DNA of 64,000 nt from Enterococcus malodoratus ATCC 43197. Lineage in GTDB: Bacteria > Bacillota > Bacilli > Lactobacillales > Enterococcaceae. A program made the position numbers and the translations under genes. The notes below the pieces were generated by a model, which searched no databases, was not told the DNA's origin, and worked only from the letters and a program-made list of their open reading frames with translations. Each line of letters starts with the position of its first letter. Within the stretch, counting starts at the first letter, position 1. This document shows, piece by piece, positions 18,856 through 33,827 of the stretch. The stretch lies in assembly GCF_000407185.1 (NCBI RefSeq), contig NZ_KE136482.1, positions 62,001-126,000 of the forward strand, in the 5' to 3' direction.

Positions 18856-18893
18856 ATAAAGCGCTTGCAACTAAACGAGCGGCGCTTTATAAT
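18856..18893 (+). promoter_or_regulatory. hypED promoter with cre-like site and inverted repeat
   Basis: TTGCAA (18865-18870), 17-bp spacer, TATAAT (18888-18893): a near-consensus promoter. A cre-like sequence with core AAAGCGCTT (18856-18869) overlaps the -35 box. The half sites AAAGCGC (18858-18864) and GCGCTTT (18882-18888) form an inverted repeat that brackets the spacer. Repression by CcpA and/or the divergent XRE-cupin protein is likely. Confidence 0.7.
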
Positions 18894-18912
18894 TGAGGCG
18901 GGAGGGAAGAAC

Positions 18913-19692
18913 GTGAAAAAGCCTACGATTTTTAATATTCAGAAGTTTTCGACCCACGATGGGCCGGGGATTCGGACAACGATTTTTTTCAAAGGGTGTC
19001 CCATCAGATGTGAATGGTGTCACAATCCTGAAAGCCAAGTATTTGGGCCGGAAATCATGTTAAACAAATACGGCAAAGAAGAACTGATTGGCAAGGACTA
19101 TTCGATTCGTGAGTTGGTCAAAAAAATTCAATCAGACCAAATCTTTTATGATCAGTCAGGGGGCGGGGTGACCTTTTCTGGCGGTGAAGTGATGGCGCAA
19201 AATATGGATTATGTAGTGGAACTGGCGCAAGAGTGTCAACGATTGGGGATAACGGTCGCGATTGATACTTGCGGAGTAGCACCAACGGAGAATTATCAGC
19301 GAATTTTACCTTACGCGGATTTGTTTTTGTACGATTTAAAGTTCATCGATTCACATAATCACCAGCTTTATACCGGTGCAGGGAATCAGCTGGTCCTGGA
19401 AAATTTACGTTTCTTATCGGAGAACCAAGCGGAGATCAATTTACGTTTGATCTTATTAGATGAAATTAATGCCGATGAAGTAGATGCGGAGGCGATTATT
19501 GACTGGTTGGCAAAAGAAAAAATTCATGTGAATGAAATTTCACTGCTACCCTATCACGATTTTGGCCGTGACAAATATGAACGTTTGAAACGTGTGTGTA
19601 CGCAAAACTTTATCAAACCGGCAGACGAAAAAGTTGAACGGCTTCAAAAGGTTTATCAAGATGCTGGTTATCAAGTGACGATCGGCGGATAA
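18913..19692 (+). CDS. hypE: Glycyl radical enzyme activase (radical SAM), HypE-like
   Basis: 259 residues. The radical-SAM cluster motif is Cys29-x3-Cys33-x2-Cys36 (GCPIRCEWCHNP), followed by GGGVTFSGGEVM, the GRE-activase signature. It generates the 5'-deoxyadenosyl radical that abstracts hydrogen from the catalytic glycine of the adjacent enzyme. It lacks the additional CxxC-rich ferredoxin-like insert present in many non-PFL activases, because HNPESQ passes directly to the beta domain. The start is the GTG at 18913 with GGAGGG 6-7 nt upstream; the upstream in-frame TTG is the promoter -35 box. It lies 49 bp before hypD. Confidence 0.88.
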   Translation: MKKPTIFNIQKFSTHDGPGIRTTIFFKGCPIRCEWCHNPESQVFGPEIMLNKYGKEELIGKDYSIRELVKKIQSDQIFYDQSGGGVTFSGGEVMAQNMDYVVELAQECQRLGITVAIDTCGVAPTENYQRILPYADLFLYDLKFIDSHNHQLYTGAGNQLVLENLRFLSENQAEINLRLILLDEINADEVDAEAIIDWLAKEKIHVNEISLLPYHDFGRDKYERLKRVCTQNFIKPADEKVERLQKVYQDAGYQVTIGG

Positions 19693-19741: not shown

Positions 19742-22144
19742 ATGACAGAATTAACACTGGAACCAACAAGAAGAGGGAGCACAGAACGAATCAAACGGTT
19801 GCGGGAGATCAGTGATAAGGAATGTACACCGAGTATTTCGATGGAACGAGCGGTCCTATTGACCGAGGCTTACAAGAAATGGGAAGGTAAAGTTTCTGCC
19901 CCTGTTCTACGCGGTCTTTCTTTCAAGTACATCATGGAAAATCGAACGAACTACATTGAAAAAGGCTCGTTAGTTCTTGGAGAAAAGGGTGACAAGCCTT
20001 GGGCGGCACCAACTTTCCCTGAATTATGCTGCCACACCTTGGAAGATTTCGACAATATGCATAATCGCGAAAAAGTATTTTTCCGAGTGAGTGAAGAAGA
20101 TCGACGGGTACAAGAAGAGGTTATTATTCCTTATTGGCATGATCGTGCGATGATGACACGGATGAATCGTCTATTACCAGAAGAATGGCACTTATTATTT
20201 GATGGCGGCCTATATACAGAATTCTTGATGCAGCGCGGACCGGGACATACGGTAGCAGACGGAAAAATGTACCAAAAAGGCTTCGCTGATTTCATAGCAG
20301 ATATCCAACAGGAAATCGACAGTTTGGACTATAACAATGATATGGAAGCATTGAATAAACGCGAAGAATTAGAAGGCATGAAGTTAGTCTGCGAAGGGAT
20401 GATCATTTACGGCAAACGCTACGCGCAGCAATGTCGCGATATGGCTGAATCAGAAACAGACCCGCAGTGGAAACAGGAACTGTTGGAGCTGGCTGAAGTC
20501 TGCGATGTGGTTCCAGAGCATGCGCCGCAAACCTTCCGTCAAGCGATCCAAATGTATTGGTTCACTCATATTGGCGTGACTGTCGAAATGAACAACTGGG
20601 ATGCTTATTCTCCAGGGAAATTGGATCAGCATTTAGAACCTTTCTATGAAAAAGATATTGAAGAGGGTCGTTTGACCCGTGAAGAAGCGCGCGAGTTGTT
20701 AGAAAATCTCTGGATTCAATTTAATAATCAGCCAGCGCCGCCAAAAGTCGGAATCACCTTAAAAGAAAGTGGTACTTATACCGACTTCTGTAACTTAAAT
20801 ACGGGTGCCTTGCGTCCTGATGGAACCAGCGGCGTAAGTGATGTCAGCTACCTAATCTTAGAAGTTATGGACGAAATGAAATTATTGCAGCCAAGTTCCA
20901 ATGTACAGATTTCGCGTAAATCACCAGAGAAATTCCTGCGTGAAGCATTAAAAGTCTCGCGTAAAGGCTGGGGACAACCGGCGATGTATAACTCTGAAGC
21001 GATTTTGGCGGAACTAAGCTACTTAGGAAAATCCGTTGATGATGCCAGAGAGAGCGGAATTTGTTCAGGCTGTGTCGAAGTTGGTGTGGCCGGAAAAGAA
21101 GCCTATGTATTGACCGGGTATCTTAATATTCCGAAAATCTTTGAATTGGCAATGAATCGCGGCTACGATCATTATTCTGATAAACAAGTCGGGATCGACG
21201 TGGGCGATTTCACTGAGATGAAAACCTATGAAGAAGTCTTCAACGCTTTTTATGAAGAATTGCAATACGTGGTGGATGTGAAGGTTGCGGGGAATAACTT
21301 GATTGAACGGATGTACATGGAATTCATGCCGGTACCATTGCTTTCTGTGATGTCCGATGATTGTATCAAGGTCGGAAAAGACTACAATGCCGGCGGCGCT
21401 CGTTACAATACCAGCTATATTCAATGTGTTGGGATCGCGACGATTACTGATTCATTGGCGGCAATCAAACACAACGTCTTCGAAGAAAAAACGATGACGA
21501 TGCAAGAGCTGCTGGCTGCCTGTGAAGCGGACTTTGAAAACTATGACGAGATTTACGACAGAGTTTATAATGAAACACCTAAATACGGAAATGACGATGA
21601 ATATGCGGATATGTTATTGCGAGATGTCGCGGCTTCATTGCAAGATGTAATCGCGGGACGACCAACACCGAAAGGTTCGAAAACAGTAGTAGAGTTCTTA
21701 CCGACAACGTGCCATGTTTACTTTGGTCAAGTCATGGAGGCTTCACCAAACGGCCGTCATAAAGGAATCCCATTACCAGATGGCATTTCACCAGAAAAAG
21801 GGGCCGATCGCAACGGTCCGACAGCAGTAATCAAATCTGCTTCGAAAATCGATCAAACCAAAACCGGCGGTGCATTACTAAATCAGAAATTTACTCCTAG
21901 TGTGGTAGCAGGTGAAGCGGGAATCACGAACATGGCCTCACTAGTTCGCAGCTACTTTGCTTTGGACGGGCACCACATCCAATTCAACGTGATTGATCGA
22001 GAAACCTTGCTGAAGGCGCAAAAACATCCGAAGGAATACGAAAACTTGATTGTTCGGGTAGCGGGCTACAGCGATTACTTCAATAATTTAGAAAAAGCTC
22101 TGCAAGATGAGATCATTTCTCGGACAGAGCAAGCATTCGGATAA
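19742..22144 (+). CDS. hypD: Glycyl radical enzyme, probable trans-4-hydroxy-L-proline dehydratase
   Basis: 800 residues. Thiyl site Cys444 with general base Glu446 (SGCVEVGVAGKEAY) and radical Gly775 in RVAGYSDYF near the C-terminus. Residues I recall as substrate contacts in C. difficile HypD are kept with correct spacing: F and H in FLMQRGPGH, D-F in TYTDFCN, the serine of LKESG, and Tyr460 in LTGY. Product of HypD is (S)-1-pyrroline-5-carboxylate, which a ProC enzyme reduces to proline; no proC is in the window. Other dehydratases or C-S lyases of this superfamily are less likely but not excluded. The AGGAGGAATAGTA leader fixes the ATG. A terminator follows. Confidence 0.85.
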   Translation: MTELTLEPTRRGSTERIKRLREISDKECTPSISMERAVLLTEAYKKWEGKVSAPVLRGLSFKYIMENRTNYIEKGSLVLGEKGDKPWAAPTFPELCCHTLEDFDNMHNREKVFFRVSEEDRRVQEEVIIPYWHDRAMMTRMNRLLPEEWHLLFDGGLYTEFLMQRGPGHTVADGKMYQKGFADFIADIQQEIDSLDYNNDMEALNKREELEGMKLVCEGMIIYGKRYAQQCRDMAESETDPQWKQELLELAEVCDVVPEHAPQTFRQAIQMYWFTHIGVTVEMNNWDAYSPGKLDQHLEPFYEKDIEEGRLTREEARELLENLWIQFNNQPAPPKVGITLKESGTYTDFCNLNTGALRPDGTSGVSDVSYLILEVMDEMKLLQPSSNVQISRKSPEKFLREALKVSRKGWGQPAMYNSEAILAELSYLGKSVDDARESGICSGCVEVGVAGKEAYVLTGYLNIPKIFELAMNRGYDHYSDKQVGIDVGDFTEMKTYEEVFNAFYEELQYVVDVKVAGNNLIERMYMEFMPVPLLSVMSDDCIKVGKDYNAGGARYNTSYIQCVGIATITDSLAAIKHNVFEEKTMTMQELLAACEADFENYDEIYDRVYNETPKYGNDDEYADMLLRDVAASLQDVIAGRPTPKGSKTVVEFLPTTCHVYFGQVMEASPNGRHKGIPLPDGISPEKGADRNGPTAVIKSASKIDQTKTGGALLNQKFTPSVVAGEAGITNMASLVRSYFALDGHHIQFNVIDRETLLKAQKHPKEYENLIVRVAGYSDYFNNLEKALQDEIISRTEQAFG

Positions 22145-22178: not shown

Positions 22179-22530
22179 GCGTTAAGTCAGAGGAAAGACG
22201 CTCTGGCTTTTTATTTTTTTACCGATATAAAAATAGATAACGCTTCAAGCAGAAAAAAGCATCATCAGCCAAAAAAACTATTTGAAAAAAAGTAAATTAT
22301 TTATTTGACTGTTTTTGGTTTAAAGGAGGAGGTCAGCTTAATAGTTACAATATTTTGAATTTCAAGTTTGGGATTATAATTCAAAGGAATTGTGGATTAA
22401 GTGAAAATAGTAACTATATCATGTATCTGATTATATTAGGCAACAGATAAAACGGTTGTAAATTATTTCTAAAAGACGAAGGACGATTAAAAAATAAAAT
22501 AAATAACAACAAAAATGAATAGAAAAAAGA
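22179..22530. other. AT-rich intergenic region without a recognisable gene
   Basis: About 350 bp between the hypD terminator and the grd promoter. Open frames here are short and lack ribosome binding sites in usable positions. An isolated AAAGGAGGAGGTC at about 22321-22333 looks like a ribosome binding site but is followed by no frame of note. Confidence 0.5.
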
Positions 22531-22559
22531 TTGAAAGTCGAAATGAATGCTGATAAAAT
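22531..22559 (+). promoter_or_regulatory. Probable promoter of the trxB-grd operon
   Basis: TTGAAA (22531-22536), 17-bp spacer, TAAAAT (22554-22559). Transcription would start near 22566, giving a leader of about 210 nt before trxB. Confidence 0.65.
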
Positions 22560-22573
22560 GGGTTTGTCTATAT

Positions 22574-22597
22574 TAGTCGTTTGTCGACAATCGACTA
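22574..22597. promoter_or_regulatory. 24-bp palindromic operator in front of the grd operon
   Basis: TAGTCGTTTGTCGACAATCGACTA is symmetric at all but one base pair position, with centre TTGTCGACAA. It begins about 8 bp after the predicted transcription start. The centre resembles the TTGT-n-ACAA type sites of FCD-family GntR regulators, and such a regulator is encoded at the far end of the operon (31956). Confidence 0.7.
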
Positions 22598-22777
22598 TAA
22601 TTGGATGAATAGATTTTATTAGAAGCTAATCTATTTGAGTGTTTTGTAATGCTCATATAATCACAATTGAAACTGTAATCAACAAGCTCCAAAAAAGAAA
22701 GCGATATCATTTTGGTTTTTTAGAAAATCACGGTGAGTTTTCATCGTATTTTATATAGAACGGAATGGAGGATAGAT

Positions 22778-23707
22778 ATGCAAGTGTATGACGTAATTAT
22801 CATCGGTGCAGGTCCCGCGGGATTGTCAGCAGCTATTTATGCCGGGCGGGCAAGGTTAAAAACATTGCTAATCGAAAAGGGTAAGGATGGTGGACAAATC
22901 ATACTGACTTCCGAGATTGAGAATTATCCCGGCAGTCTGGAGAAGGAATCCGGTCGTTCTCTGATTAAACGGATGACCGAGCAAGCAGCATCATTCGGTG
23001 TTGAGCGCGCAGCGGATACGATTGTTGAAGTCGATTTTTCGAATGATGTGAAAGTAATCAAGGGCAAAAAAGGGGAATATCAAGGGCGTTCAATCATTAT
23101 CGCCTCGGGAGCTTACCCTCGGCCGATCGGTTGTGCGAATGAAAAGGAGTTCATGGGTAAAGGGCTCTCTTATTGTGCGACCTGTGATGCGGCCTTTTTC
23201 GAAGATATGGAAGTTTTTGTGATCGGCGGCGGGAATTCAGCGGTGGAAGAGGCGATCTTCCTATCAACCTTTGCTCGTAAAGTGACGATCATTCAAAATC
23301 TCGCAGAACTGACCGCAGATGCGATCGCGATCGAACAAGTTAAGGCCAACGAGAAGATCCACTATGTCTATAATTCGGTCGTGGAGAGTCTCGAAGGTGA
23401 CGGCATTGTTGAAGCGATCACGATTCGCAACACTGAGACAAATGAAACGACCCGCTTCGATGCTGACGAAGAAGACGGGCTGATTGGTATTTTCAGTTTT
23501 ATCGGTTATTTGCCGCAGTCGAAAATTTTTGAAAATATCGTTGAAATGGAGAGAGGCTACATTAAAACCGATGAAAAGATGGCGACGAATGTTCCGGGCG
23601 TATATGCTGCTGGCGATGTTCGGGTCAAAAATGTTCGTCAAGTTGTCACAGCAAGTGGCGATGGCTGTACAGCGGCTGTTGCGATTGAAAAGTATCTGCA
23701 TCATTAA
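22778..23707 (+). CDS. trxB: Thioredoxin reductase of the grd operon
   Basis: 309 residues. FAD motif GAGPAGLSAAIYAGRA at the N-terminus, redox-active Cys133-Ala-Thr-Cys136 (CATCDAAFF), NADPH motif VIGGGNSAVEEA, and the C-terminal GVYAAGDVR FAD motif. The start is the ATG at 22778 with GGAGG 6 nt upstream; the longer frame lacks a suitable site. As first gene of the operon it supplies NADPH electrons to the neighbouring thioredoxin, which then reduces the selenoprotein GrdA system after each turnover. Confidence 0.93.
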   Translation: MQVYDVIIIGAGPAGLSAAIYAGRARLKTLLIEKGKDGGQIILTSEIENYPGSLEKESGRSLIKRMTEQAASFGVERAADTIVEVDFSNDVKVIKGKKGEYQGRSIIIASGAYPRPIGCANEKEFMGKGLSYCATCDAAFFEDMEVFVIGGGNSAVEEAIFLSTFARKVTIIQNLAELTADAIAIEQVKANEKIHYVYNSVVESLEGDGIVEAITIRNTETNETTRFDADEEDGLIGIFSFIGYLPQSKIFENIVEMERGYIKTDEKMATNVPGVYAAGDVRVKNVRQVVTASGDGCTAAVAIEKYLHH

Positions 23708-23803
23708 AATTTTTCTTGAAATGTCAGCTCCGTACCTTTGCATAAGTAAGCGGATTGGCAGATGAAGTGTGGATTAGAAAATTGATTAAGGAGTAGTTTG
23801 ACT

Positions 23804-24121
23804 ATGAAAGTTTTAGATAAAAAGAATTTTGAAGCGGAAGTATTGCAAAGTCAGGGAACGATGCTGGTTGATTTTTTCTCAGAAACTTGTGAACCCTGCC
23901 AAGCTTTGATGCCCAGTATCGAAGAATTTGCGGATAAATACAGTGAGAAAATACCATTCGCTAAGTTAGATACAGCGAAAGCCAGAAGAGTGGCGATCGG
24001 CCAAAAAATTCTTGGCATACCAGTAATCGCTATCTATAAAGACGGTGAAAAAATCGAAGAGCTGGTGAAAGACGATGCTACACCTGAGAGTGTAGAAGCA
24101 ATGATTCAAAAGTATATTTAA
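23804..24121 (+). CDS. trxA: Thioredoxin with CEPC active site
   Basis: 105 residues, a thioredoxin fold with active site Cys29-Glu30-Pro31-Cys32 (ETCEPCQALMPS) instead of CGPC, no tryptophan before the first cysteine, and a conserved cis-proline (GIPVIAIY). Thioredoxins from clostridial glycine reductase operons also have non-canonical active sites (CVPC as I recall), so this looks like a dedicated electron donor for the reductase. AAGGAG lies 10 nt before the ATG; a TTG six bases upstream is an alternative start. Confidence 0.92.
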   Translation: MKVLDKKNFEAEVLQSQGTMLVDFFSETCEPCQALMPSIEEFADKYSEKIPFAKLDTAKARRVAIGQKILGIPVIAIYKDGEKIEELVKDDATPESVEAMIQKYI

Positions 24122-24165
24122 CGGGTCAAACCGTTTAAATAATAAAAAAACAAGGAGGAATCATT

Positions 24166-24630
24166 ATGTTGCTGAAAGACAAAAAAGTTATCATCCTCGG
24201 CGACAGAGACGGCGTTCCCGGGCAAGCCATTGAAGAATGTGTGAAACCACTAGGCGCAGATGTAGTATTCTCATCCACAGAATGCTTTGTCTGAACGGCC
24301 GCGGGCGCAATGGATCTGGAAAATCAAAAGAGGGTCAAAGAGTTTACAGAGGAATTCGGTGCTGAGAATATTGTTGTTGTTCTTGGCGCGGCGGAAGGTG
24401 AAGCTGCTGGGTTAGCAGCCGAAACTGTAACTTTGGGTGATCCTACGTATGCCGGTCCATTAGCGGGAGTCCAGTTAGGACTTGACGTATATCATATCGT
24501 TGAACCAGAAATGAAAGAAGCGATTGACTCTGAACTGTACGAGGAACAAGTTGGAATGATGGAAATGGTCTTAGATGTTGACGATATTGTCGACGAAATG
24601 GCTTCAATTCGAAGTCAAATAAGTGAATAA
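24166..24630 (+). CDS. grdA: Selenoprotein GrdA (reductase component A), Sec at residue 43
   Basis: 154 residues when the in-frame UGA at 24292-24294 is read as selenocysteine. Context [18 protein letters not shown] is the canonical GrdA site. GrdA is the small redox selenoprotein that takes the carboxymethyl group from component B as Se-carboxymethyl-selenocysteine and delivers it to component C. The ATG has AAGGAGG at good distance; reading stops at TAA 24628. Automatic gene finders will split it at the UGA and report only the C-terminal 106 residues. The frame on both sides is fully conserved, so it is not a pseudogene. Confidence 0.95.
24292..24294 (+). other. Selenocysteine UGA codon in grdA
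   Basis: In-frame TGA, codon 43. Downstream bases ACGGCCGCGGGCGC can form a small GC hairpin of the bacterial SECIS type close to the UGA. Confidence 0.92.
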
Positions 24631-24712
24631 GTTTTGCGTGCAGTTCTTTTATGATACTGGACGAGGACTTGTTCAGTATCATTCCAAAATTTTGATCAGA
24701 AAGGATGTTCCT

Positions 24713-26248
24713 ATGTATAGCGTATTGAAAGGGTCGAGCTATTATCTGGCACATACTCCAGATATGGTCGTTCATAATGGCACTACTCAAACACTTCAAA
24801 GAAAAATTGATCCTGATTCAGAATACTTAAAAGAAATAAGCAACCACTTGCGCGATTACGAAACCTGCGTGTCCTATCCGCCGAATCAAGTTTATATCGG
24901 GAACATGACTCCAGAAGAGCTCGAAAAAATCGAAACTCCTTGGTATGACAAAAAAGCTGAGGACAAACGACAAGGGAAATTTGGAGAAATCATGCCAGAG
25001 GATGAGTTTATCGGCATGTTGAAATACGTTGATGTTTTTGATTTGGTCAAATTGAATGATGAATTTAGTAAACAGGTAAAAAATAAATTAGATAAACATC
25101 CATTACTGGATGAGAAAATTTTAGCAAAGCTCGCAGAGGAAGTTTCTTCTGATGAGATCTTAGGTTTTATCGAAAATGAGAAGGCAGAACCGATCCGCTT
25201 TAATGACGAGATCGTTGGTTGTGTAAAAGCCGCTCACAATTTGGATGATACCTTATTTGCGCATGTCATTTTTGAAAATCTTGTTTCAAAGGCCTCTTGT
25301 ACGATTGCGATTTTACACTTGCTTCAACAAACAGGCATCGATAAAAACGAAATTGAATATGTCTTGGAATGTTCAGAGGAAGCCTGTGGCGATATGAATC
25401 AACGCGGCGGTGGGAACTTTGCAAAGGCGGCAGCAGAAATGGCTGGATTGGAAAACGCGACAGGCAGCGATGTTCGCGGTTTTTGTGCTGGACCAACGCA
25501 TGCTCTGATTCAAGCAGCTTCATTAGTAAAATCTGGTGTTTTCAAAAATGTGATCGTTGCGGCTGGCGGATCGACTGCAAAATTAGGCATGAATGGCAAG
25601 GACCATTTGAACAAAGGACTGCCGATTCTAGAAGACTGCGTCGCAAGTTTCGCGGTATTGATTTCTGAAAATGATGGGATTAGTCCAGAATTAAATACCG
25701 ATATTGTCGGACGTCATACCGTTGGCACAGGGGCCTCGCCGCAAAAAGTGATTTCTTCTTTAACGAGTATTCCGTTAGAAAAAGCCGGTCTCAAGTTGAC
25801 CGATGTCGATAAATACTCTGTTGAGATGCAAAATCCAGATATTACAAAACCGGCGGGAGCAGGCAATGTGCCGGAAGCAAATTATAAAATGATCGGCGCA
25901 TTGGCAGTGATGAAAGGTCAAATCCAAAAAGCCGAATTGGCCGATTTCGTGAAGCAGCACGGCATGGTGGGCTGGGCACCGACTCAAGGTCATATTCCTT
26001 CTGGGATTCCTTATCTAGGCTTTGCTCGCGAGAATATTTTGGCTGGTGAACTCAATCGGACGATGTTTGTCGGAAAAGGCAGCCTTTTCTTAGGGCGGAT
26101 GACGAACTTATTTGATGGGATTTCCTTTATGATGCAAAAAAATAGCGGAGAACCAGAAACGGCTGTTTCTGAAGAGCAAATTAAGCAGTTGATTGCGGAA
26201 TCTTTACGCGACTTCGCGAGCCATCTTGTTGGAAAGCTTGAGGAATAA
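24713..26248 (+). CDS. grdC: Glycine/sarcosine/betaine reductase component C, subunit beta
   Basis: 511 residues, matching the usual length of GrdC. The N-terminus MYSVLKGSSYYLAHTPDMV with HNGTTQT is typical. The fold is related to fatty-acid beta-ketoacyl synthase III/thiolase enzymes, with CSEEACGDMNQRGGGNFAKA and the late EMQNPDIT motif. With GrdD it converts the Se-carboxymethyl group to an acetyl thioester and then, with phosphate, to acetyl phosphate. The ATG at 24713 is preferred over the longer frame starting inside grdA because of family length and AGGATG upstream. It is followed 4 bp later by grdD. Confidence 0.94.
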   Translation: MYSVLKGSSYYLAHTPDMVVHNGTTQTLQRKIDPDSEYLKEISNHLRDYETCVSYPPNQVYIGNMTPEELEKIETPWYDKKAEDKRQGKFGEIMPEDEFIGMLKYVDVFDLVKLNDEFSKQVKNKLDKHPLLDEKILAKLAEEVSSDEILGFIENEKAEPIRFNDEIVGCVKAAHNLDDTLFAHVIFENLVSKASCTIAILHLLQQTGIDKNEIEYVLECSEEACGDMNQRGGGNFAKAAAEMAGLENATGSDVRGFCAGPTHALIQAASLVKSGVFKNVIVAAGGSTAKLGMNGKDHLNKGLPILEDCVASFAVLISENDGISPELNTDIVGRHTVGTGASPQKVISSLTSIPLEKAGLKLTDVDKYSVEMQNPDITKPAGAGNVPEANYKMIGALAVMKGQIQKAELADFVKQHGMVGWAPTQGHIPSGIPYLGFARENILAGELNRTMFVGKGSLFLGRMTNLFDGISFMMQKNSGEPETAVSEEQIKQLIAESLRDFASHLVGKLEE

Positions 26249-26252
26249 ACTT

Positions 26253-27410
26253 ATGGCTGGAAAAGATACGAAACAAATAATTGCTGAGGTATTTCAGGAA
26301 CTTGCGGATACATTGGAAACCGGACGGGGTGTTTCGTCAACAGTAGCATTGACTGCTTTGGGGAGTGAGCATGACGAAGCAGAGCTGATTGATGCGGCGA
26401 AAATGGCGGCGGATAAAGGAATTTCTGTGAAGGTCATCGGGACTAAGGAAATTGATTATTCAGGCATCGAAAGTATCTTAGTTTCAGATACAGATGAAGC
26501 ACAAAAAGAGCTGGAGAAGGTTTTGTCTGAAGGAACGGCGGATGCCGGTGTGACAATGCATTATCCGTTTCCCATCGGTATTTCTACTGTTGGTCGAGTC
26601 ATCACGCCAGCAAAAGGCAAGCATATGTATCTTGCGACAACGACAGGTACTTCTGCGTTAACACGCGTTGAAGCTTTAGTGTTGAATGCCTTGTATGGCA
26701 TTATCACAGCGAAAACCTGCGGTATTGCGGAGCCAACCATCGGCTTATTGAATATTGACGGTGCCCGCCAAGCGGAGATTATTCTAAAAAAATTGATGGA
26801 TAAAGGGTATCCGATCCACTTTGCAAAATCCAACCGCAGCGACGGCGGAGCAGTCATGCGAGGCAATGATGTTCTGGCAGGGACGTGCGACGTCATGGTG
26901 ATGGATTCCTTAACGGGGAATATTTTGCAGAAAGTCTTTTCTTCCTATAGTACTGGAGGAAATTATGAATCTTTAGGTTTTGGTTATGGTCCAGGTGTCG
27001 GCGAAGAGATGGACAAATTAATCATGATCGTTTCTCGCGCCTCGGGAGCTCCCGTTGTCTGTGGAGCCATCGAATTCGCGGATGAGCTGGTTCGTGGCGA
27101 CTTCAAGCAAGTTCAAAAAACCGAATTTGCAAAATTGAAGCAGGCATCTTTAGAAACCTTACTAAAAGAAGCGCAGCCAAAGAAAGAGGCCGTTCAAGAG
27201 GAAGTAGCTGCACCAGATAAAGAAATTGTTACTGAAGAAATACATGGCGTTGAAATTTTGGATTTAGAAGATGCCGTGCAGCATTTATGGCAGAAAAATA
27301 TTTACGCTGAAAGCGGTATGGGATGCACCGGTCCAGTGGTGATGATTGCAGAAAAGAGAGTATCGGAGGCAAAGGCTGTTTTGGCTGACGCCGGCTATAT
27401 TGGCGGCTGA
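26253..27410 (+). CDS. grdD: Glycine/sarcosine/betaine reductase component C, subunit alpha
   Basis: 385 residues, the usual GrdD size. Motifs: LETGRGVSSTVALTALGSEHG-like N-terminus, PsPlsX-type phosphotransacylase body, and the C-terminal Cys358 in GMGCTGPVVM, equivalent to the acetyl-accepting cysteine (Cys359) of clostridial GrdD. It releases acetyl phosphate, which acetate kinase can use to make ATP. The ATG lies 4 bp after the grdC stop with GAGG inside grdC, so the two subunits are translationally linked. Confidence 0.94.
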   Translation: MAGKDTKQIIAEVFQELADTLETGRGVSSTVALTALGSEHDEAELIDAAKMAADKGISVKVIGTKEIDYSGIESILVSDTDEAQKELEKVLSEGTADAGVTMHYPFPIGISTVGRVITPAKGKHMYLATTTGTSALTRVEALVLNALYGIITAKTCGIAEPTIGLLNIDGARQAEIILKKLMDKGYPIHFAKSNRSDGGAVMRGNDVLAGTCDVMVMDSLTGNILQKVFSSYSTGGNYESLGFGYGPGVGEEMDKLIMIVSRASGAPVVCGAIEFADELVRGDFKQVQKTEFAKLKQASLETLLKEAQPKKEAVQEEVAAPDKEIVTEEIHGVEILDLEDAVQHLWQKNIYAESGMGCTGPVVMIAEKRVSEAKAVLADAGYIGG

Positions 27411-27475
27411 TTAATCAGCTGCGGCAAAGATAGTTCAGTTAAAAATTAGTCCCAAAATGAGAAAGGAGTAAGCAA

Positions 27476-28801
27476 ATGAAATTAGACATCGCAAATTTTC
27501 ATGTTAAAGATATTCAGTTCGGTGAGAAAACAGAGTATGCCGAGGGTATCTTAACGATAAATAAAAAAGAAGCGCTAGCTGTTGTTTTTGAAGATGAACA
27601 CATTACCGAAGCAGAACTGCATATTGTCAAACCTGGGGATGAAGTCCGAATGGTTCCAGTCAAAGAAGCCGTTGAACCGCGTTATCGGGTTGGGGGCGGC
27701 CCGGTATTTCCTGGTGTAACTGGAAAATTAATGCAAGCGGGCGACGGAGTGACTCATGCTTTAAAAGATATGAGTGTTTTAGTTGTCGGTCAGCATTACG
27801 GTGGGTTCCAAGACGGATTGATCGATATGAGCGGAGAAGGTGCGAAGTATACGTATTACTCGCAGCTTAAAAATGTTGTTTTGGTTGCTCATACCGATGA
27901 AGCATTCGAATACCACGAGCAGCAAAAGAAAAATCATGCCTTGCGTTGGGCAGGCATGCGTTTAGCAGAATATATCGGCGCTTGCACAAAAGGATTGAAA
28001 TCAGATGAGGTGGAGACCTATGAGCTGGCACCAGTTACTAAACGGGATGAAGCCGTGAATCAATTACCAAGTGTAGTCTTTGTGCTGCAGCCGCAATCAC
28101 AAATGGAGGAAGATGGCTACAATGATTTGAATTATGGCTGGAATTGCAATTCGATGCTGCCGACCTTTATGCATCCAAATGAGGTGTTGGACGGTGCGAT
28201 GATTTCTGGTTCCTTCATGCCTTGTTCCTCAAAATGGTCGACCTATGATTTTCAAAACTTCCCAATGATTAAACGATTATATGAAGAACACGGGAAAACA
28301 ATCAATTTCTTAGGCATAATCATGTCGAATCTGAACGTGGCTTTGGAACAAAAAGAACGGGCAGCCATATTTGTCGCTCAAATGGCGAAAAGCCTAGGGG
28401 CTGATAGCGCGGTGGTAGCCGAAGAAGGCTATGGGAATCCAGATGCTGATTTTACTGCTTGTTATGTGGCGTTAGAAGACGCGGGTGTTAAGACGGTTGG
28501 ACTTACCAATGAATGTACAGGGCGGGATGGCGCCAGCCAGCCGTTAGTATCAATGGACGAAAAATGCGACGCGATCGTTTCAGCAGGGAATGTTTCTACT
28601 TTGATCGAATTACCGCCGATGAAAACAGTCTTAGGAGAATTGGAAGCTTTAGCCCGTGACGGACTTTCAGGCGGCTGGTCAAATGACGAAATTCTAGGCT
28701 CCTCGGTCAAATCAGATGGGTCAATCATTATGGAAAACAACGCGATGTTCTGCGGAGATCAAGTAGTCGGCTGGTCAACGAAAACGATGGTTGAGTTCTA
28801 A
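27476..28801 (+). CDS. Reductase component B precursor subunit (GrdE/GrdG/GrdI type)
   Basis: 441 residues. Family members are proproteins cleaved at an Asn-Cys bond into two chains, the new N-terminus becoming a pyruvoyl group that binds the substrate amine. A candidate site is Asn223-Cys224 in YGWNCNSMLPT; Cys250 (SGSFMPCSSKWSTY) is another conserved-looking cysteine. The adjacent BCCT carrier favours the betaine form (GrdI) over glycine (GrdE) or sarcosine (GrdG), but that rests on context. Has GAAAGGAG 8 nt before the ATG and its partner Sec subunit follows. Confidence 0.9.
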   Translation: MKLDIANFHVKDIQFGEKTEYAEGILTINKKEALAVVFEDEHITEAELHIVKPGDEVRMVPVKEAVEPRYRVGGGPVFPGVTGKLMQAGDGVTHALKDMSVLVVGQHYGGFQDGLIDMSGEGAKYTYYSQLKNVVLVAHTDEAFEYHEQQKKNHALRWAGMRLAEYIGACTKGLKSDEVETYELAPVTKRDEAVNQLPSVVFVLQPQSQMEEDGYNDLNYGWNCNSMLPTFMHPNEVLDGAMISGSFMPCSSKWSTYDFQNFPMIKRLYEEHGKTINFLGIIMSNLNVALEQKERAAIFVAQMAKSLGADSAVVAEEGYGNPDADFTACYVALEDAGVKTVGLTNECTGRDGASQPLVSMDEKCDAIVSAGNVSTLIELPPMKTVLGELEALARDGLSGGWSNDEILGSSVKSDGSIIMENNAMFCGDQVVGWSTKTMVEF

Positions 28802-28895
28802 TTCGACTTGCGGCTTATTATTTCAAGAACTGTTTAACAGCAGACACGATCTTTTTCCAAAATAGATCTCAGTAGTATGAATTAGGAGGGAAATT

Positions 28896-30215
28896 ATGAA
28901 AGCGATTTTATACATTAATCAGTTTTTCGGTCAGATAGGCGGAGAAGAATTCGCTGGTCATGAACCGGAAATCAGAGAAGGAATTGTTGGCCCGGGTATG
29001 GCCTATGCCAAAGCCCTGAAGGATGAAATTGAAATCACTCATACCGTTATTTGCGGAGACAATTTCATGGGTTCAGAAACGGAAGAGGCAATCGAGCGTA
29101 TCTTAGGATTTTTAGATGACAAAGAGTTTGATATTTTCTTTGCAGGTCCAGCGTTTCGAGCAGGCCGCTATGGGGTTGCCTGCGGTCATATTTGTTCGGC
29201 GGTTCAAAAGAAATTTGGCGTACCAGCAATCACCTCAATGAATGAAGAAAATCCCGGTGTAGAAATGTATCGCAAGGAAATGTACATTTTTGAAGGCGGA
29301 GCCAGCGCAGCGGCGATGCGTAAAGATGTGGCGAAAATGTCGGCTTTTGCTTTGCGTTTATTGTATGATGAAAAACTAAATTCAGCGGCGGAAGAAGGGT
29401 ATTTTGGCCGCGGTGTTCGTGATCAAGTTTGGTTGAACCCGCCAATTCCTGCGACCGATCGTGTGATCGACATGCTGCTGAAGAAAGTAAATGGCGAAGA
29501 ATACCAATCCGAATTGATTATTCCTAAATCAGAGCGAGCACCGATCGCGCCAGCTATCCCGGCGGAAGAATTAGCGAAAATCAAAGTAGCGCTAGTCACT
29601 TCTGGTGGGATCGTACCAGTCGGCAATCCTGATCGAATTCAATCGGCTTCGGCAACCAAATGGGGAAAATACAATGTAGACTCAATGGACGAGTTGAAAA
29701 AGGGTGAGTTTATGACGATCCATGCCGGGTTTGACCCGGCCGCAGCGAATGACGATCCCAATGTCGTATTACCATTAGATGTGATGAAAGAGTTCGCTAA
29801 AGAAGGAAAAATCGGCGGTGTTTATCCTTATTTCTATGCGACGGTTGGGACTGGAACAACGCAGGCGGAAGCAAGCCGGATGGGGCAAGAAATTGCACAG
29901 GAATTAATTGGTGATGGCGTTAAGGCCGTTATTCTCACCTCCACCTGAGGAACCTGTACTCGTTGCGGTGCAACGATGACCAGAGAAATCGAAAAAGCGG
30001 GAATTACAATTGTTCAAATGGCCAACTTGATTCCAGTTGCTCGGACAGTCGGTGTCAATCGGATCGTACCCACGATCTCGATTCCATATCCGCTAGGAGA
30101 CCCAGCAACACCGAAAGAAGTTCAGCACAAGCTGCGCTACCATCGTGTGGGTGTTGCTCTAGACGCGTTATCGACTGAAATTGAAGAACCTCGACTCTTT
30201 GAAGTGAAAGTTTAG
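28896..30215 (+). CDS. Selenoprotein reductase component B large subunit (GrdB/GrdF/GrdH type), Sec at residue 351
   Basis: 439 residues when the UGA at 29946-29948 is read as selenocysteine. The context is LTST-U-GTCTRCGATM, giving a Sec-Gly-Thr-Cys redox site as in all substrate-specific Grd selenoproteins. The N-terminal part (INQFFGQIGGEE, HAGFDPAAANDDPN) and the C-terminal IVPTISIPYPLGDP are family hallmarks. The selenolate attacks the methylene carbon of the imine-bound substrate and releases the amine. By context with the BCCT transporter this is most likely GrdH of betaine reductase, giving trimethylamine. AGGAGGG precedes the ATG. Confidence 0.92.
29946..29948 (+). other. Selenocysteine UGA codon in the component B gene
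   Basis: In-frame TGA, codon 351; the same frame continues for 88 further codons with strong family similarity. Confidence 0.93.
29961..29975 (+). promoter_or_regulatory. SECIS-like hairpin downstream of the component B UGA
   Basis: CGTTGC (29961-29966) pairs perfectly with GCAACG (29970-29975) over a GGT loop, 12 nt after the UGA. Bacterial SECIS elements are hairpins at this position, within the coding sequence, recognised by SelB. Confidence 0.6.
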
Positions 30216-30282
30216 TAAGTGAATGACGAGTCGTAGAAATGCGGCTCGTCCGATTAAAAAACTTTGAGGAGGAGGCGTTAAA

Positions 30283-31773
30283 ATGAAAAAAAATATAGTA
30301 TTTTATGTATCTCTTTTGATCACCGCCGTAATTGTACTTGTCGGTTTAGTCGCACCTAAGCCATTTGCGCAGGCGATGAATGGAACAAAGGCCTTCTTGG
30401 TAGATACTTTTGGTTGGTTTTATTTAATTGCTATGTTTGTTTTTGTCATTTTCTCGTTGCTGATTGCTTTTAGCCGCTTTGGAAAAATAAAACTTGGTCC
30501 TGATGATTCTGTTCCTGAATACAGCAATCGTTCTTGGTTCGCGATGCTGTTTGGTGCCGGTATGGGGATTGGCTTGGTTTTTTGGGGTGTCGCTGAACCG
30601 TTGAACCACTTTGCTACGTTTGGCGGAACGGAAAAAGCAGCCGATCTAGCGATGCAAAAATCCTTTTTACATTGGGGCTTTCATCCGTGGGCGGCCTATT
30701 CGATTATCGGAATGGCGCTGGCTTATTTTCAGTTTAGGAAGAAGACACCGGGGTTGATCAGCAGTATTTTTTTACCGATCCTAGGTGAAGAGGGTGTTCG
30801 CGGTCCGATCGGTAAAATTATAGATATTTGCGCGGTCTTTGCGACAGTTGCTGGAATCGCGACGTCACTTGGTCAAGGAACGCTGCAAATCAACTCGGGA
30901 TTGAACTACCTGTTCGACATTCCAACAACCCGACTCGTTCAGATAGTGATTATTGTTTCCTTGACGGTCGTGTATACGTGGACCGCGGTTAGCGGAATTG
31001 ATAAAGGAATTAAACTTTTGTCAGATATCAATTTATTCTTGGCGGTAGCGATTCTTTTAGGAGCTTTTCTAATCGGACCTAAAATCATGTCCTTGAATAT
31101 TTTTACTAATTCTTTTGGCGGATACATCAATAACTTGGTATCAGAAAGCTTTTCGATTAATCCATTTGGAGACAATGCGTGGTTAGGTTCGTGGACAATT
31201 TTTTATTGGTCATGGTGGATCGCTTGGGGACCGTTTGTTGGAACCTTTATTGCTAGAATATCCAAAGGAAGGACGATTAAGGAATTTGTTTTGGGAGTGA
31301 TCATTGCTCCTTCGATGGTCTCGTTTATCTGGTTCTCAATCTTTGGCAGCTTAGGACTTAATTTGGATATTGAGATTATTAACAAAGCGAAGGCAGTAAC
31401 AGAGACGGCACTTTTTGTTGTTTTAGCCGAATATCCGCTGGGAATGTTCTTTTCGATCATCGCTATTTGTCTCCTGTGTACTTTTTTTATCACTTCCGCC
31501 AATTCGGGTATTTTTGTTCTGTCGATGTTTTCATCGGAAGGCGACTTGAATCCCGGCAACGATAAAAAAATTCTATGGGGAGTTATTCAAGCGCTGCTGG
31601 CATTAGTTTTATTGATGACGGGCGGTTTGGATGCGTTGCAAACTTGTTCGATTGTTGCAGCCCTGCCATTGACGGTGATTATGCTGCTGTGCGCGGTGTG
31701 TTTATTCAAAGCATTGCTGCAGGAGAAACCCAAACCAGAGGAGTTATCGAAGTCCGCTGAACTGGAAAAGTAA
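30283..31773 (+). CDS. BCCT-family betaine/choline/carnitine-type transporter
   Basis: 496 residues with about twelve membrane segments. BCCT hallmarks: GAGMGIGLVFWGVAEPL near residue 90 and the tryptophan-rich signature WTIFYWSWWIAWGPFVG near residue 305, followed by FIARISKGRT. BCCT carriers import quaternary amines with Na+ or H+. Its place directly behind the selenoenzyme genes with a strong GAGGAGGAGG site suggests it feeds glycine betaine to the reductase rather than serving osmoprotection. Terminal tails are short, lacking the long regulatory C-terminal extension of osmosensing BetP. Confidence 0.93.
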   Translation: MKKNIVFYVSLLITAVIVLVGLVAPKPFAQAMNGTKAFLVDTFGWFYLIAMFVFVIFSLLIAFSRFGKIKLGPDDSVPEYSNRSWFAMLFGAGMGIGLVFWGVAEPLNHFATFGGTEKAADLAMQKSFLHWGFHPWAAYSIIGMALAYFQFRKKTPGLISSIFLPILGEEGVRGPIGKIIDICAVFATVAGIATSLGQGTLQINSGLNYLFDIPTTRLVQIVIIVSLTVVYTWTAVSGIDKGIKLLSDINLFLAVAILLGAFLIGPKIMSLNIFTNSFGGYINNLVSESFSINPFGDNAWLGSWTIFYWSWWIAWGPFVGTFIARISKGRTIKEFVLGVIIAPSMVSFIWFSIFGSLGLNLDIEIINKAKAVTETALFVVLAEYPLGMFFSIIAICLLCTFFITSANSGIFVLSMFSSEGDLNPGNDKKILWGVIQALLALVLLMTGGLDALQTCSIVAALPLTVIMLLCAVCLFKALLQEKPKPEELSKSAELEK

Positions 31774-31955
31774 TCAGACAGTGAATAATCATGTGAATGA
31801 AAACACAATTTAGATAGGGAGTATCAGTAGATAAAGTCGAAGGAAGTGCGCGTATTTATAATGGTCAAAAGGATCAGACACCGAACGCCATGAGACTTAG
31901 TAAAGGCTTTCTGATATAATTAATGGGATATATCGGAAGGGATGCTGATTTATTT

Positions 31956-32654
31956 ATGGATATTATGCCTAGATACGAAAAACAAAGTTTAAGCGATATG
32001 GTTGTGTCGTATGTTAAAAATAGAATCTTGTCAGGAACGCTAAAGGGCGGCGACCGATTAATTGAAACAGATATCTCAAATAATTTTAATATTAGCCGAG
32101 CACCTGTCAGGGAAGCGATGCGTATTTTGAACGAACAAGGATTGATTACATTTTCTCCTCGTAAAGGAAACCATGTGATTGAAATGGAACCTGCTGAAAT
32201 AATGGAAGTCTTTGAAATACGAACGTCACTTGAAACACAAATTTTGCGAAAAATTTTGCGGAATCAATTGCTCAAAGAGGAAGATTTCGATCAGCTGACG
32301 AAAATTGCGTTAGAAATGAAAGACGGGAAACAGCGTTGTCGAAATGAAGAGGACAAGGTCTTTTTGCTAAACACATTAGATATTTCTTTTCATAAATATC
32401 TTTGGCAATTATCAGGCAGTGTGCGACGGGCCCAAATACTAGAGAGCTTGTTTTATCAATTGCTTATTGCCATGAACGAAGATTTGTCATCGTTGGGAAT
32501 TCTGGAAAAGAAATCAGATGAGCATTTGGCTTTTGTTGACGTTTTACGGAAAAATGAACTTCCTTCGGTTGTTCGCGCGTTTCATGGGCATATTCAAAAT
32601 TATGTCAGAGCCACCTTGCCGGAAGAAGAAAAGTCTTTTTGTTTGGATTGTTAA
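31956..32654 (+). CDS. GntR-family regulator, FCD (FadR/VanR-like) subfamily
   Basis: About 232 residues: N-terminal winged HTH (SDMVVSYVKNRILSGTLKGG, then NFNISRAPVREAMRIL) and C-terminal all-helical FCD ligand domain (residues about 85-220) with metal-type histidines (ISFHKYLWQ, AFHGH). Start is uncertain: the ATG at 31923 follows a TATAAT (31915-31920) by only 2 bp, so the ATG at 31956 or 31965 is more plausible. It is the natural candidate to bind the palindrome at 22574-22597 and to respond to betaine or a related amine. Confidence 0.85.
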   Translation: MDIMPRYEKQSLSDMVVSYVKNRILSGTLKGGDRLIETDISNNFNISRAPVREAMRILNEQGLITFSPRKGNHVIEMEPAEIMEVFEIRTSLETQILRKILRNQLLKEEDFDQLTKIALEMKDGKQRCRNEEDKVFLLNTLDISFHKYLWQLSGSVRRAQILESLFYQLLIAMNEDLSSLGILEKKSDEHLAFVDVLRKNELPSVVRAFHGHIQNYVRATLPEEEKSFCLDC

Positions 32655-32694: not shown

Positions 32695-33252
32695 ATGACA
32701 AATAAAATAAAGGTTTGGACGAAGCAGCATGCAGATATTTTGAACGTATTGAATCAGACAGGGCGGTATATTGCAAAAAAAGAGTATATTGAGCAAAAAA
32801 TGGAGGATCATACAAGCCTTTATTTGGGTGTCTATGATTGGTATTTTCATGCGGCCTCAAAGCTGGTTCAACCGCCGGCGGACGTGAAGTATCCGATTTG
32901 GGTCTCGCTCTCTCAAGAAGAGAGTATTCAAAATAGCGAAGGCAATGCGATCTTGGAAATTGAACTTGAGCAGGACCAATTGATTATCGTGGATCTGCTG
33001 AAATGGGGCAATATTGTTAATTATTTGTACATTCCTAAGGATCTGGAGGATCAAAAGGCTCATAGTGAACTCTTAGAGCAATATGGCATCGATGATTGCA
33101 CGGCTTTTATGACACCGTTTTATCCTAATATCAAACGAAAAATCGAAAAAAGCCGTGAACGTCTTTTTGATGATTCCAGTGTATTGGGAGAAATGAAAGT
33201 TGGGACGATATGGGAGATTCGCAAAGAATGGATTACAGAGATCACCAGGTAA
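32695..33252 (+). CDS. DUF3841-family protein, copy 1
   Basis: 185 residues, soluble, recognised as DUF3841 by the opening KVWTKQHADILNVLNQTGRYI, the middle GVYDWYFHAA and PIWVSL, and the ending GTIWEIRKEWI. Function is unknown. GGAGG lies 3-4 nt from the ATG. It overlaps the next, paralogous gene by 25 bp, so both are made from one transcript. It follows the FCD regulator in the same orientation, which may or may not be functional association. Confidence 0.8.
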   Translation: MTNKIKVWTKQHADILNVLNQTGRYIAKKEYIEQKMEDHTSLYLGVYDWYFHAASKLVQPPADVKYPIWVSLSQEESIQNSEGNAILEIELEQDQLIIVDLLKWGNIVNYLYIPKDLEDQKAHSELLEQYGIDDCTAFMTPFYPNIKRKIEKSRERLFDDSSVLGEMKVGTIWEIRKEWITEITR

Positions 33253-33827
33253 CGCTGTTTACTTCTCAGAGCCAAGTGGTTGTTGATAAAATTGTTGAGA
33301 CAGGAAGATACACGGTCAAGAACGAATTCATCAGCAAGAAATATGGTGAAACTTCGCAAGTTTTTTTGCAGGCCTATGGCTGGTATCGTCAAAACGCCTC
33401 GCAAATCGTTGAACGGCCCGCGGATGGAGACTCAGCAATTTGGTCATTTCTAAATGTAAACTATCTCGATTACTCAGCAGATTCGAAAATTATCAAACTG
33501 CATGTTCCAATCGAGCAGATTGTGTTCTTTCGAATGTCTGATTGGAATAAAATTTTGAATTTACGTTTGCTGGGAACGCCTGAAGAGGAAGCAGAGTATT
33601 ATGAACGACTAAAAAAATTCAATGTTGCTTATGAAGGCGATGTTTATACAACTGGGTTTTATCCGCATTTGAAAACAGAGCTGGTTCGAAGCTGGCAAAA
33701 ACTTTTTCAATATGATCACATGATCAAAGAGACCAAAAATTTGCCTTTTGACGATATTCAAGGGGGAATTTGGGAAATTCGAAACAGCTGGGTCGAGTCA
33801 TTTACGGATTGGGGAATTGAGCAGTGA
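33228..33827 (+). CDS. DUF3841-family protein, copy 2
   Basis: About 199 residues, a diverged paralogue of the preceding gene with the same pattern: VTLFTSQSQVVVDKIVETGRY, AYGWYRQNASQIVERPADG, AIWSFL and GGIWEIRNSWV. The ATG at 33228 (25-bp overlap with copy 1) is preferred over the one at 33210 because GGGAG then lies about 11 nt upstream; both are possible. Tandem duplication followed by divergence is evident. Function unknown. A bidirectional terminator follows. Confidence 0.78.
   Translation: MDYRDHQVTLFTSQSQVVVDKIVETGRYTVKNEFISKKYGETSQVFLQAYGWYRQNASQIVERPADGDSAIWSFLNVNYLDYSADSKIIKLHVPIEQIVFFRMSDWNKILNLRLLGTPEEEAEYYERLKKFNVAYEGDVYTTGFYPHLKTELVRSWQKLFQYDHMIKETKNLPFDDIQGGIWEIRNSWVESFTDWGIEQ

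Follow-up and report, generated by a model that had tools for sequence, protein, structure and literature searches.

The window analysed here, a stretch of 64,000 nucleotides from Enterococcus malodoratus ATCC 43197 (GCF_000407185.1; positions 62,001 to 126,000 of contig NZ_KE136482.1, here C2), holds a nine-gene operon, trxB-trxA-grdA-grdC-grdD-grdI-grdH-BCCT-GntR/FCD, which runs on the + strand from 22778 to 32654 and very probably encodes a selenocysteine (Sec)-dependent glycine-betaine reductase. A first-pass annotation of the same DNA had described these genes as a betaine-reductase-type operon in one direction over some 10 kb; we confirm the operon's presence, with all nine genes where that annotation had placed them, and find betaine to be the best substrate assignment by GrdH cut-offs, locus comparison and tree. 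The sequence checks likewise favour the earlier interpretation of the locus, with the corrections that the operon is one of three UGA-bearing Stickland reductase loci found in this genome, beside a D-proline (prd) locus on C2 and a glycine (grd) locus on contig C1, and that other enterococci have it too.

Protein families were scored against curated NCBIfam/TIGR cut-offs, with Pfam models for GrdI and the GntR/FCD regulator; the scores of GrdH, GrdA, GrdC and GrdD lie well outside what chance would give. From upstream to downstream, all on the + strand, the operon comprises genes for the thioredoxin reductase TrxB (22778..23707; TIGR01292, 350 bits, cut-off 343), the clostridial-type thioredoxin TrxA (23804..24121; NF047697, 152 bits, cut-off 140), selenoprotein A or GrdA (24166..24630; NF040748, 270 bits, cut-off 130), the protein C subunits beta, GrdC (24710..26248; NF040746, 823 bits, cut-off 450), and alpha, GrdD (about 26253..27410, with the start set by the E. 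gilvus gene length; NF040747, 553 bits, cut-off 350), the betaine-type B component alpha/beta proprotein GrdI (27476..28801; PF09338, 614 bits), the betaine reductase selenoprotein B or GrdH (28896..30215; NF040795, 803.3 bits, cut-off 775), a BCCT carrier (30283..31773; TIGR00842, 495 bits, cut-off 408) and a GntR/FCD regulator (31923..32654; PF00392 and PF07729). In-frame UGA codons lie at codon 43 of grdA (24292-24294) and codon 351 of grdH (29946-29948), and the lengths of the two products correspond to masses of roughly 17 and 47 kDa, respectively. In the loci of E. avium, E. raffinosus, E. gilvus and E. florum the operon likewise closes with a GntR/FCD gene, and the regulator encoded here probably acts on this operon.

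The substrate assignment rests mainly on GrdH, which passes the betaine model but falls under the cut-offs for sarcosine GrdF (NF040794, 554 vs. 800 bits) and glycine GrdB (TIGR01917, 473 vs. 602 bits), while GrdI falls under that for sarcosine GrdG (NF040793, 344 vs. 780 bits); with the respective curated cut-offs out of reach, sarcosine or glycine specificity of this B component was rejected. GrdI is, furthermore, 83-87% identical to the product of the grdH-adjacent gene in Sporomusa and Anaerospora. What speaks against the assignment is that NCBIfam holds no betaine model for GrdI, whose best match is the sarcosine GrdG model, if below its cut-off; that the BCCT protein, which likely imports glycine betaine, falls 0.8 bit short of the betaine carrier model NF047988 (649.2 vs. 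650 bits); and that reduction of betaine to acetyl phosphate and trimethylamine is read across from family biochemistry. Given that Grd B components share a single common chemistry and that BCCT carriers transport carnitine and choline too, the B component might have a different amine as its substrate, such as sarcosine, glycine or some related N-methyl compound, with no trimethylamine arising from the operon; we consider this unlikely in view of the GrdH scores, of the separate operon in this genome whose GrdB does exceed the glycine cut-off (678 vs. 602 bits), and of the nearest relatives outside Enterococcus, Sporomusa and Anaerospora, the former being betaine fermenters that release trimethylamine.

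That the UGA codons of grdA and grdH are read as Sec and not as stops is supported by several features of the sequences. Both proteins align to their family models end to end across the UGA, the Sec codon falling within an ST-U-GTCTRC motif in GrdH and a CFV-U-TAAGA motif in GrdA, which we take to be the motifs of these families, and the UGA is kept, one per gene, in all five of the 105 Enterococcaceae genomes with a GrdH over the cut-off. In a synonymous-constraint test that compared conserved degenerate codons at positions +1 to +11 after the UGA with those of the whole gene, six Enterococcus grdH sequences had 8 of 10 codons after the UGA identical vs. 54 of 350 gene-wide (Fisher p = 7e-6), a constraint fraction matched by 3 of 319 windows along the gene; in 12 grdB genes the corresponding values were 5/10 vs. 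18/256, with 10 of 168 windows reaching that fraction. Over the first 33 bases from the UGA, grdH of this operon has 29-33 in common with each of the 12 grdB genes (12/12), and its protein is merely 48% identical to the GrdB encoded on C1. Because the model match spans the UGA, the UGA itself is conserved and the synonymous codons behind it are frozen, we interpret this codon of grdH as Sec. Two results count against the reading: the 18 grdA genes show no synonymous constraint (2/10 vs. 12/83, with 18 of 49 windows reaching the fraction), and, although the 51 bases from each of six UGA codons fold into a hairpin resembling a bacterial Sec insertion sequence (bSECIS) at five of the six, synonymous shuffles do the same in 120-198 of 300 cases per site, so that no site of the six is separated. 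Folding was for this reason discarded as proof of a SECIS element and replaced by the synonymous-codon test, negative for grdA as it is.

Where the first-pass annotation had proposed a genome search for the decoding machinery, we find selA (E 2e-152), selB (2e-107), selD (7e-111) and tRNA-Sec (68 bits, gathering score 47; ARAGORN agrees) all on C2, the replicon of the grd operon. One over-cut-off match each was obtained in the whole genome for selB, selD and tRNA-Sec, whereas the SelA profile also matched three more sequences in part, at 38-49 bits, probably different enzymes that share the SelA fold. The cluster reads selD-yedF-DUF3343-selB-(cysteine desulfurase/Sec-lyase-like)-selA, the lyase-like protein reaching 286 of the 525 bits that the SclA cut-off requires, and spans the end of C2 into its start. 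Since the selA frame continues without a gap across the joined contig ends, which share no exact overlap, we read C2 (1,188,036 bases) as a closed circle. The RepA encoded upstream of the prd operon is 79% identical to RepA of E. gilvus pCR1A, with which gene order is collinear over about 9 kb (RepA, chloride channel, two Xaa-Pro peptidases, two threonine/serine exporter genes, proline iminopeptidase and peptide carrier). Closed circle, RepA and conserved order are all found, and on these grounds we assign C2 to the enterococcal megaplasmids of the pCR1A kind, of which PLSDB lists six such replicons of 0.92-1.19 Mb from E. raffinosus and E. gilvus. As a separate observation, the interval from prd to selD in E. 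raffinosus CX012922 (L150 6445-16143) contains cytosine permease, DUF917 and hydantoinase/oxoprolinase genes in two sets; frames of similar appearance, judged by eye, occur there once in E. malodoratus (L029 10718-14682) and are absent from E. gilvus.

Enzymes of this type being classically clostridial, the first-pass annotation had allowed for a clostridial contig, and contaminating clostridial DNA or a mis-assembly had to be weighed; the evidence rules it out, and we give it practically no credence. In a scan of one genome per species (best 80 of 165 matches), GrdH is 95% identical to its counterparts in E. avium ATCC 14025 and E. raffinosus N17 and 89% to that of E. florum, and it is 93% identical to those in E. 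raffinosus and E. gilvus plasmid records, as against 81-82% in Sporomusa/Anaerospora, the nearest outside Enterococcus at 82%. The operon is flanked by hypD and an ABC-F gene in five of the six Enterococcus loci compared, the exception being E. florum; its G+C content (0.442) can be set beside 0.416 for the whole window and 0.50-0.51 for two Sporomusaceae operons; and both the circular contig and the independent finished plasmid records contradict contamination. By their coordinates the E. avium, E. raffinosus and E. florum hits correspond to G003, G017 and G007, all members of the genus group to which the window's genome belongs, and these comparisons place that genome within the E. avium group of Enterococcus.

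The genes, their UGA codons, the Sec machinery, the family assignments and acetate kinase (two over the cut-off, both on C1) are all present in this genome, and we propose a route in which reaction, products, direction of electron flow, carrier substrate and GntR control are predicted from the family. The BCCT carrier would bring betaine into the cell; GrdH/GrdI would bind it, break the C-N bond and free trimethylamine, the carboxymethyl group staying on the selenocysteine of GrdA; GrdC/GrdD would convert this GrdA-bound group to acetyl phosphate, from which acetate kinase would make ATP; and TrxB/TrxA would regenerate reduced GrdA at the expense of NAD(P)H. For a lactic acid bacterium living without oxygen, such a pathway would be an electron sink that also gives ATP. 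Sec would come from the sel cluster and tRNA-Sec of the same replicon, which would serve the D-proline and C1 glycine reductases too.

The patchy presence of the operon, found in only 5 of 105 Enterococcaceae genomes and absent at the same site in E. raffinosus CX012922, could instead suit a silent or decaying import, with the BCCT carrier used for osmoprotection and the reductase unused. We judge this very unlikely: no frame in the window is broken other than by the two Sec UGA codons, the whole gene set recurs in the E. avium, two E. raffinosus, the E. gilvus and the E. florum loci, and a comparison of six grdH genes shows the amino acid conserved at 350 degenerate codons but the codon itself at only 54 of them. 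Because amino acids are conserved while synonymous codons vary, the GrdH protein must have been maintained by selection. A working glycine-betaine reductase remains the preferred reading, weakened by the behaviour of E. raffinosus: among its five matched megaplasmids two carry the operon and three match over the regulator only, and the operon, missing from three of the five listed, is therefore dispensable; the selB stretch is matched in all five and in E. gilvus. In operon-free CX012922 a GntR gene follows hypD by 173 bases; compared with operon-bearing F162_2, the hypD and ABC-F flanks are 95-97% identical and the regulator just 81% at the DNA level (L147 14881-15752 vs. L148), which suggests exchange or loss of the module along with its own regulator allele. 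E. raffinosus offers a natural comparison, since its strains either have or lack the operon at a single site.

The search for Grd proteins across relatives, also proposed in the first-pass annotation, places the operon in E. avium, some E. raffinosus, E. gilvus and E. florum as well. Enterococcaceae counts exclude GrdB-like matches confined to residues 1 to about 193, without the Sec part; on this basis, a full-length UGA-bearing B subunit of the glycine-type class (524-551 bits on the betaine model, like the C1 gene) occurs in 13 of 20 genomes of the genus group, and PrdB-like genes with UGA in 18 of the 20 plus four genomes of other genera (G025, G082, G088 and G104). SelB, judged across genomes by the single 47-position C-terminal domain PF09107 and by the full TIGR00475 model in the window's own genome, is found in 23 of the 105 Enterococcaceae. 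UGA-bearing Grd/Prd genes occur in 22 of these 23 SelB genomes vs. none of the 82 others (Fisher p = 9e-22); the remaining one, G006, has prdD-prdE-prdF beside selD-selB-selA on its stretch. The association extends to 395 Lactobacillales genomes, with SelB over the cut-off in 42, its matches being spread over 19 of 80 genera if a single weak one is counted, and UGA-bearing Grd/Prd genes in 39 of the 42 and in 0/353 others; G114, below the SelB cut-off, was left out. The N-terminal-only matches of G070, G079 and G089 (open frames of 177 aa with a TGA listed, which by their lengths lies at or past the frame end) were left out of this Grd/Prd count, as was a similar second match of G025, a genome counted by its PrdB. 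Such p-values overstate independence, as related genomes share ancestry. The order prdC-prdA-prdB-prdD-prdE-prdF-selD-yedF-DUF3343-selB-lyase-like is the same in G025 and G088, and in G025 the contig bearing this prd-sel island accounts for 2.8 Mb of a genome of 2.9 Mb.

Several further observations emerged from these scans. Three SelB genomes, G233, G241 and G325, give no match to a Grd/Prd B-subunit model and may use Sec for something else; in G095, by contrast, the PrdB-like match contains no stop and SelB is not matched. Six genomes from two other Lactobacillales family groups (f4, f6) carry a UGA-bearing GrdE/GrdB-like pair (L208 4905-7480; L209 5215-7810; L210 4858-7450; L211 6477-9053; L212 5089-7664; L213 4998-7577) whose B subunit is under the glycine, sarcosine and betaine cut-offs and whose substrate may be new; in L208 and L213 a frame that by eye resembles hydantoinase/dihydropyrimidinase lies directly upstream. 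A gene annotated prdB (D-proline reductase) is present on five Ligilactobacillus salivarius plasmids of 215-360 kb (NZ_LT604075.1, NZ_CP047413.1, NZ_CP007647.1, NZ_CP089851.1 and NZ_CP123972.1).

The betaine operon and the decoding machinery appear to differ in origin. In a GrdH tree of 85 rows, built by a quick method with SH-aLRT support only and without the P. acidaminophilum sequence among those compared, the seven Enterococcus rows form one group (99) that stands next to three Sporomusaceae (96) and apart from Bacillaceae. In the SelB tree, likewise a quick one, with some long branches and several rows from the same genomes, 26 Lactobacillales rows group together (97) away from Sporomusaceae SelB, and Enterococcus SelB shares 39-40% identity with its nearest counterpart in the three Sporomusaceae genomes; a joint arrival of Sec machinery and betaine operon is unsupported on both counts. 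Since the two trees differ, Lactobacillales seem to have had the decoding machinery for longer than the betaine operon, for which we infer, short of proof, transfer from a Sporomusa-like donor. Within Enterococcus, the GrdH sequences of E. raffinosus N17 and E. avium form a group (88) that leaves out the one from E. raffinosus F162_2 (L031, L148), possibly through exchange between species or a naming problem. Together, these results lead us to favour, with some reserve, a history in which Lactobacillales kept an old Sec system of their own for Stickland reductases, as the prd-sel island in several genera suggests, some lineages added glycine reductase, and the E. avium group added a Sporomusa-like betaine reductase on a Sec megaplasmid, so that a selenoenzyme whose gene is presumably chromosomal would depend on a plasmid-borne extension of the genetic code.

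The other Stickland loci of this genome also bear UGA codons. On C2, from RepA to the sel cluster, lie prdC (with an internal UGA), prdA, prdB (UGA at codon 151), prdD, a short gene that the E. gilvus annotation calls a reductase B subunit, and a gene of the proline racemase family; PrdA (964 bits, cut-off 700), PrdB (403, cut-off 300) and PrdC (580, cut-off 490) exceed their thresholds, and the racemase family protein (532) is below its cut-off of 556. The in-frame UGA of prdC (C2:1168037-1188036, about 1151-2440) lies near the end of the gene within GSCSD-U-TNTV, and PrdC may be a further selenoprotein. Contig C1 (1.99 Mb) carries grdX-grdE-grdA-grdB-trxB-trxA-grdC-grdD, an order confirmed on the homologous stretch of G017, with UGA codons in grdA and grdB. 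The formate dehydrogenase alpha model (TIGR01591) finds nothing in this genome, in which no exhaustive search for other selenoproteins was made, and CutC, another route to trimethylamine, is not over its cut-off here but is in 5 of the 20 genomes of the genus group.

Upstream of the grd operon, the + strand carries a gene for the radical-SAM activase of HypD (18865..19692), an open reading frame 90% identical to an E. gilvus homologue that is annotated "radical SAM protein" and adjoins hypD, and then hypD itself (19742..22144; trans-4-hydroxy-L-proline dehydratase, NF043068, 1285 bits, cut-off 1100), whose product could supply the replicon's own D-proline reductase with proline. Pattern matches alone mark, on the + strand, a terminator-like hairpin between hypD and the operon (22184..22209) and a promoter-like site upstream of trxB (22531..22559), patterns seen at 14 sites in the region vs. 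9.5 (sd 3.0) in shuffles and at 23 sites vs. 20.3 (sd 4.9), respectively. Beyond the regulator, two adjacent frames (32695-33827) stand where E. gilvus has genes annotated DUF3841, and the operon-free site of E. raffinosus CX012922 has no gene annotated at that place. No solved structural relative of GrdH was found at E 0.001.

The first-pass annotation had also held that no such case was described in enterococci. Our searches of an open-access library likewise turned up no report of a betaine reductase or Stickland system from enterococci, though earlier reports elsewhere are possible; the claim has to be qualified by an E. durans paper that lists grdB, selA and selB among automated predictions (PMC8894896). 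A survey of selenium use singles out Enterococcus as the exception, many of its species having SelD and none of the other markers (PMC4561486), an earlier survey reports only an orphan SelD in E. faecalis (PMC1794560), and proteomic evidence for trimethylamine production in Enterococcus has been described in a text whose available part does not name the gene (PMC10653893). The main text of the two E. raffinosus genome papers makes no mention of selenium, betaine, glycine reductase, trimethylamine or Stickland reactions. The enzyme chemistry is already known, and the E. gilvus record names grdH; what appears to be new, as far as searched, is the Sec-based Stickland gene set in enterococci and the wider Lactobacillales and the placement of the betaine branch together with the decoding machinery on a megaplasmid. 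If the proposal is correct, Sec together with D-proline, glycine and betaine reductases would alter the view of the anaerobic life of gut and clinical bacteria of the E. avium group: enterococci would stand among the users of the same amino acids as Clostridioides difficile, competing with such clostridia for proline, hydroxyproline and glycine, and would be a possible source, outside clostridia, of trimethylamine from betaine.

Betaine reductase was first characterised in Eubacterium (Peptoclostridium) acidaminophilum, and the enzymes of this organism and of Sporomusaceae have the same components as the operon described here, GrdA, C, D, H and I with TrxA/TrxB. The loci of Sporomusa ovata, Sporomusa sp. 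KB1 and Anaerospora share its order trxB-trxA-grdA-grdC-grdD-grdI-grdH, but all three have selA inserted between grdD and grdI, whereas in E. malodoratus selA, 50-51% identical to theirs, lies in the separate sel cluster. Unlike the Sporomusaceae systems, this one is hosted by a lactic acid bacterium and ends in BCCT and GntR genes; a BCCT gene follows grdH in clostridial loci as well (L036-L040, L044, L050 and L062). Clostridioides difficile and its relatives have grd glycine and prd D-proline reductase operons, both kinds of which occur elsewhere in this genome, but here the Stickland operons are divided between two contigs and the plasmid-like circle has the only strong selB, selD and tRNA-Sec. 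Within the genus, E. faecalis resembles E. malodoratus in having selD, a gene linked there to the orphan SelD/selenium-dependent molybdenum hydroxylase trait, yet its SelD stands, according to the two surveys (PMC1794560, PMC4561486), without the other known components of selenium use, whereas here selA, selB, tRNA-Sec and UGA-bearing genes accompany it. The closest known system is pCR1A of E. gilvus CR1 (919 kb), annotated trxB-thioredoxin-grdA-grdC-grdD-B subunit-grdH-BCCT-GntR: it shares with C2 the operon, its flanks, the prd-sel island and a similar RepA, and it differs in belonging to another species, in a DNA identity of about 81% over the 82% that is matched, and in being known only from record annotation.

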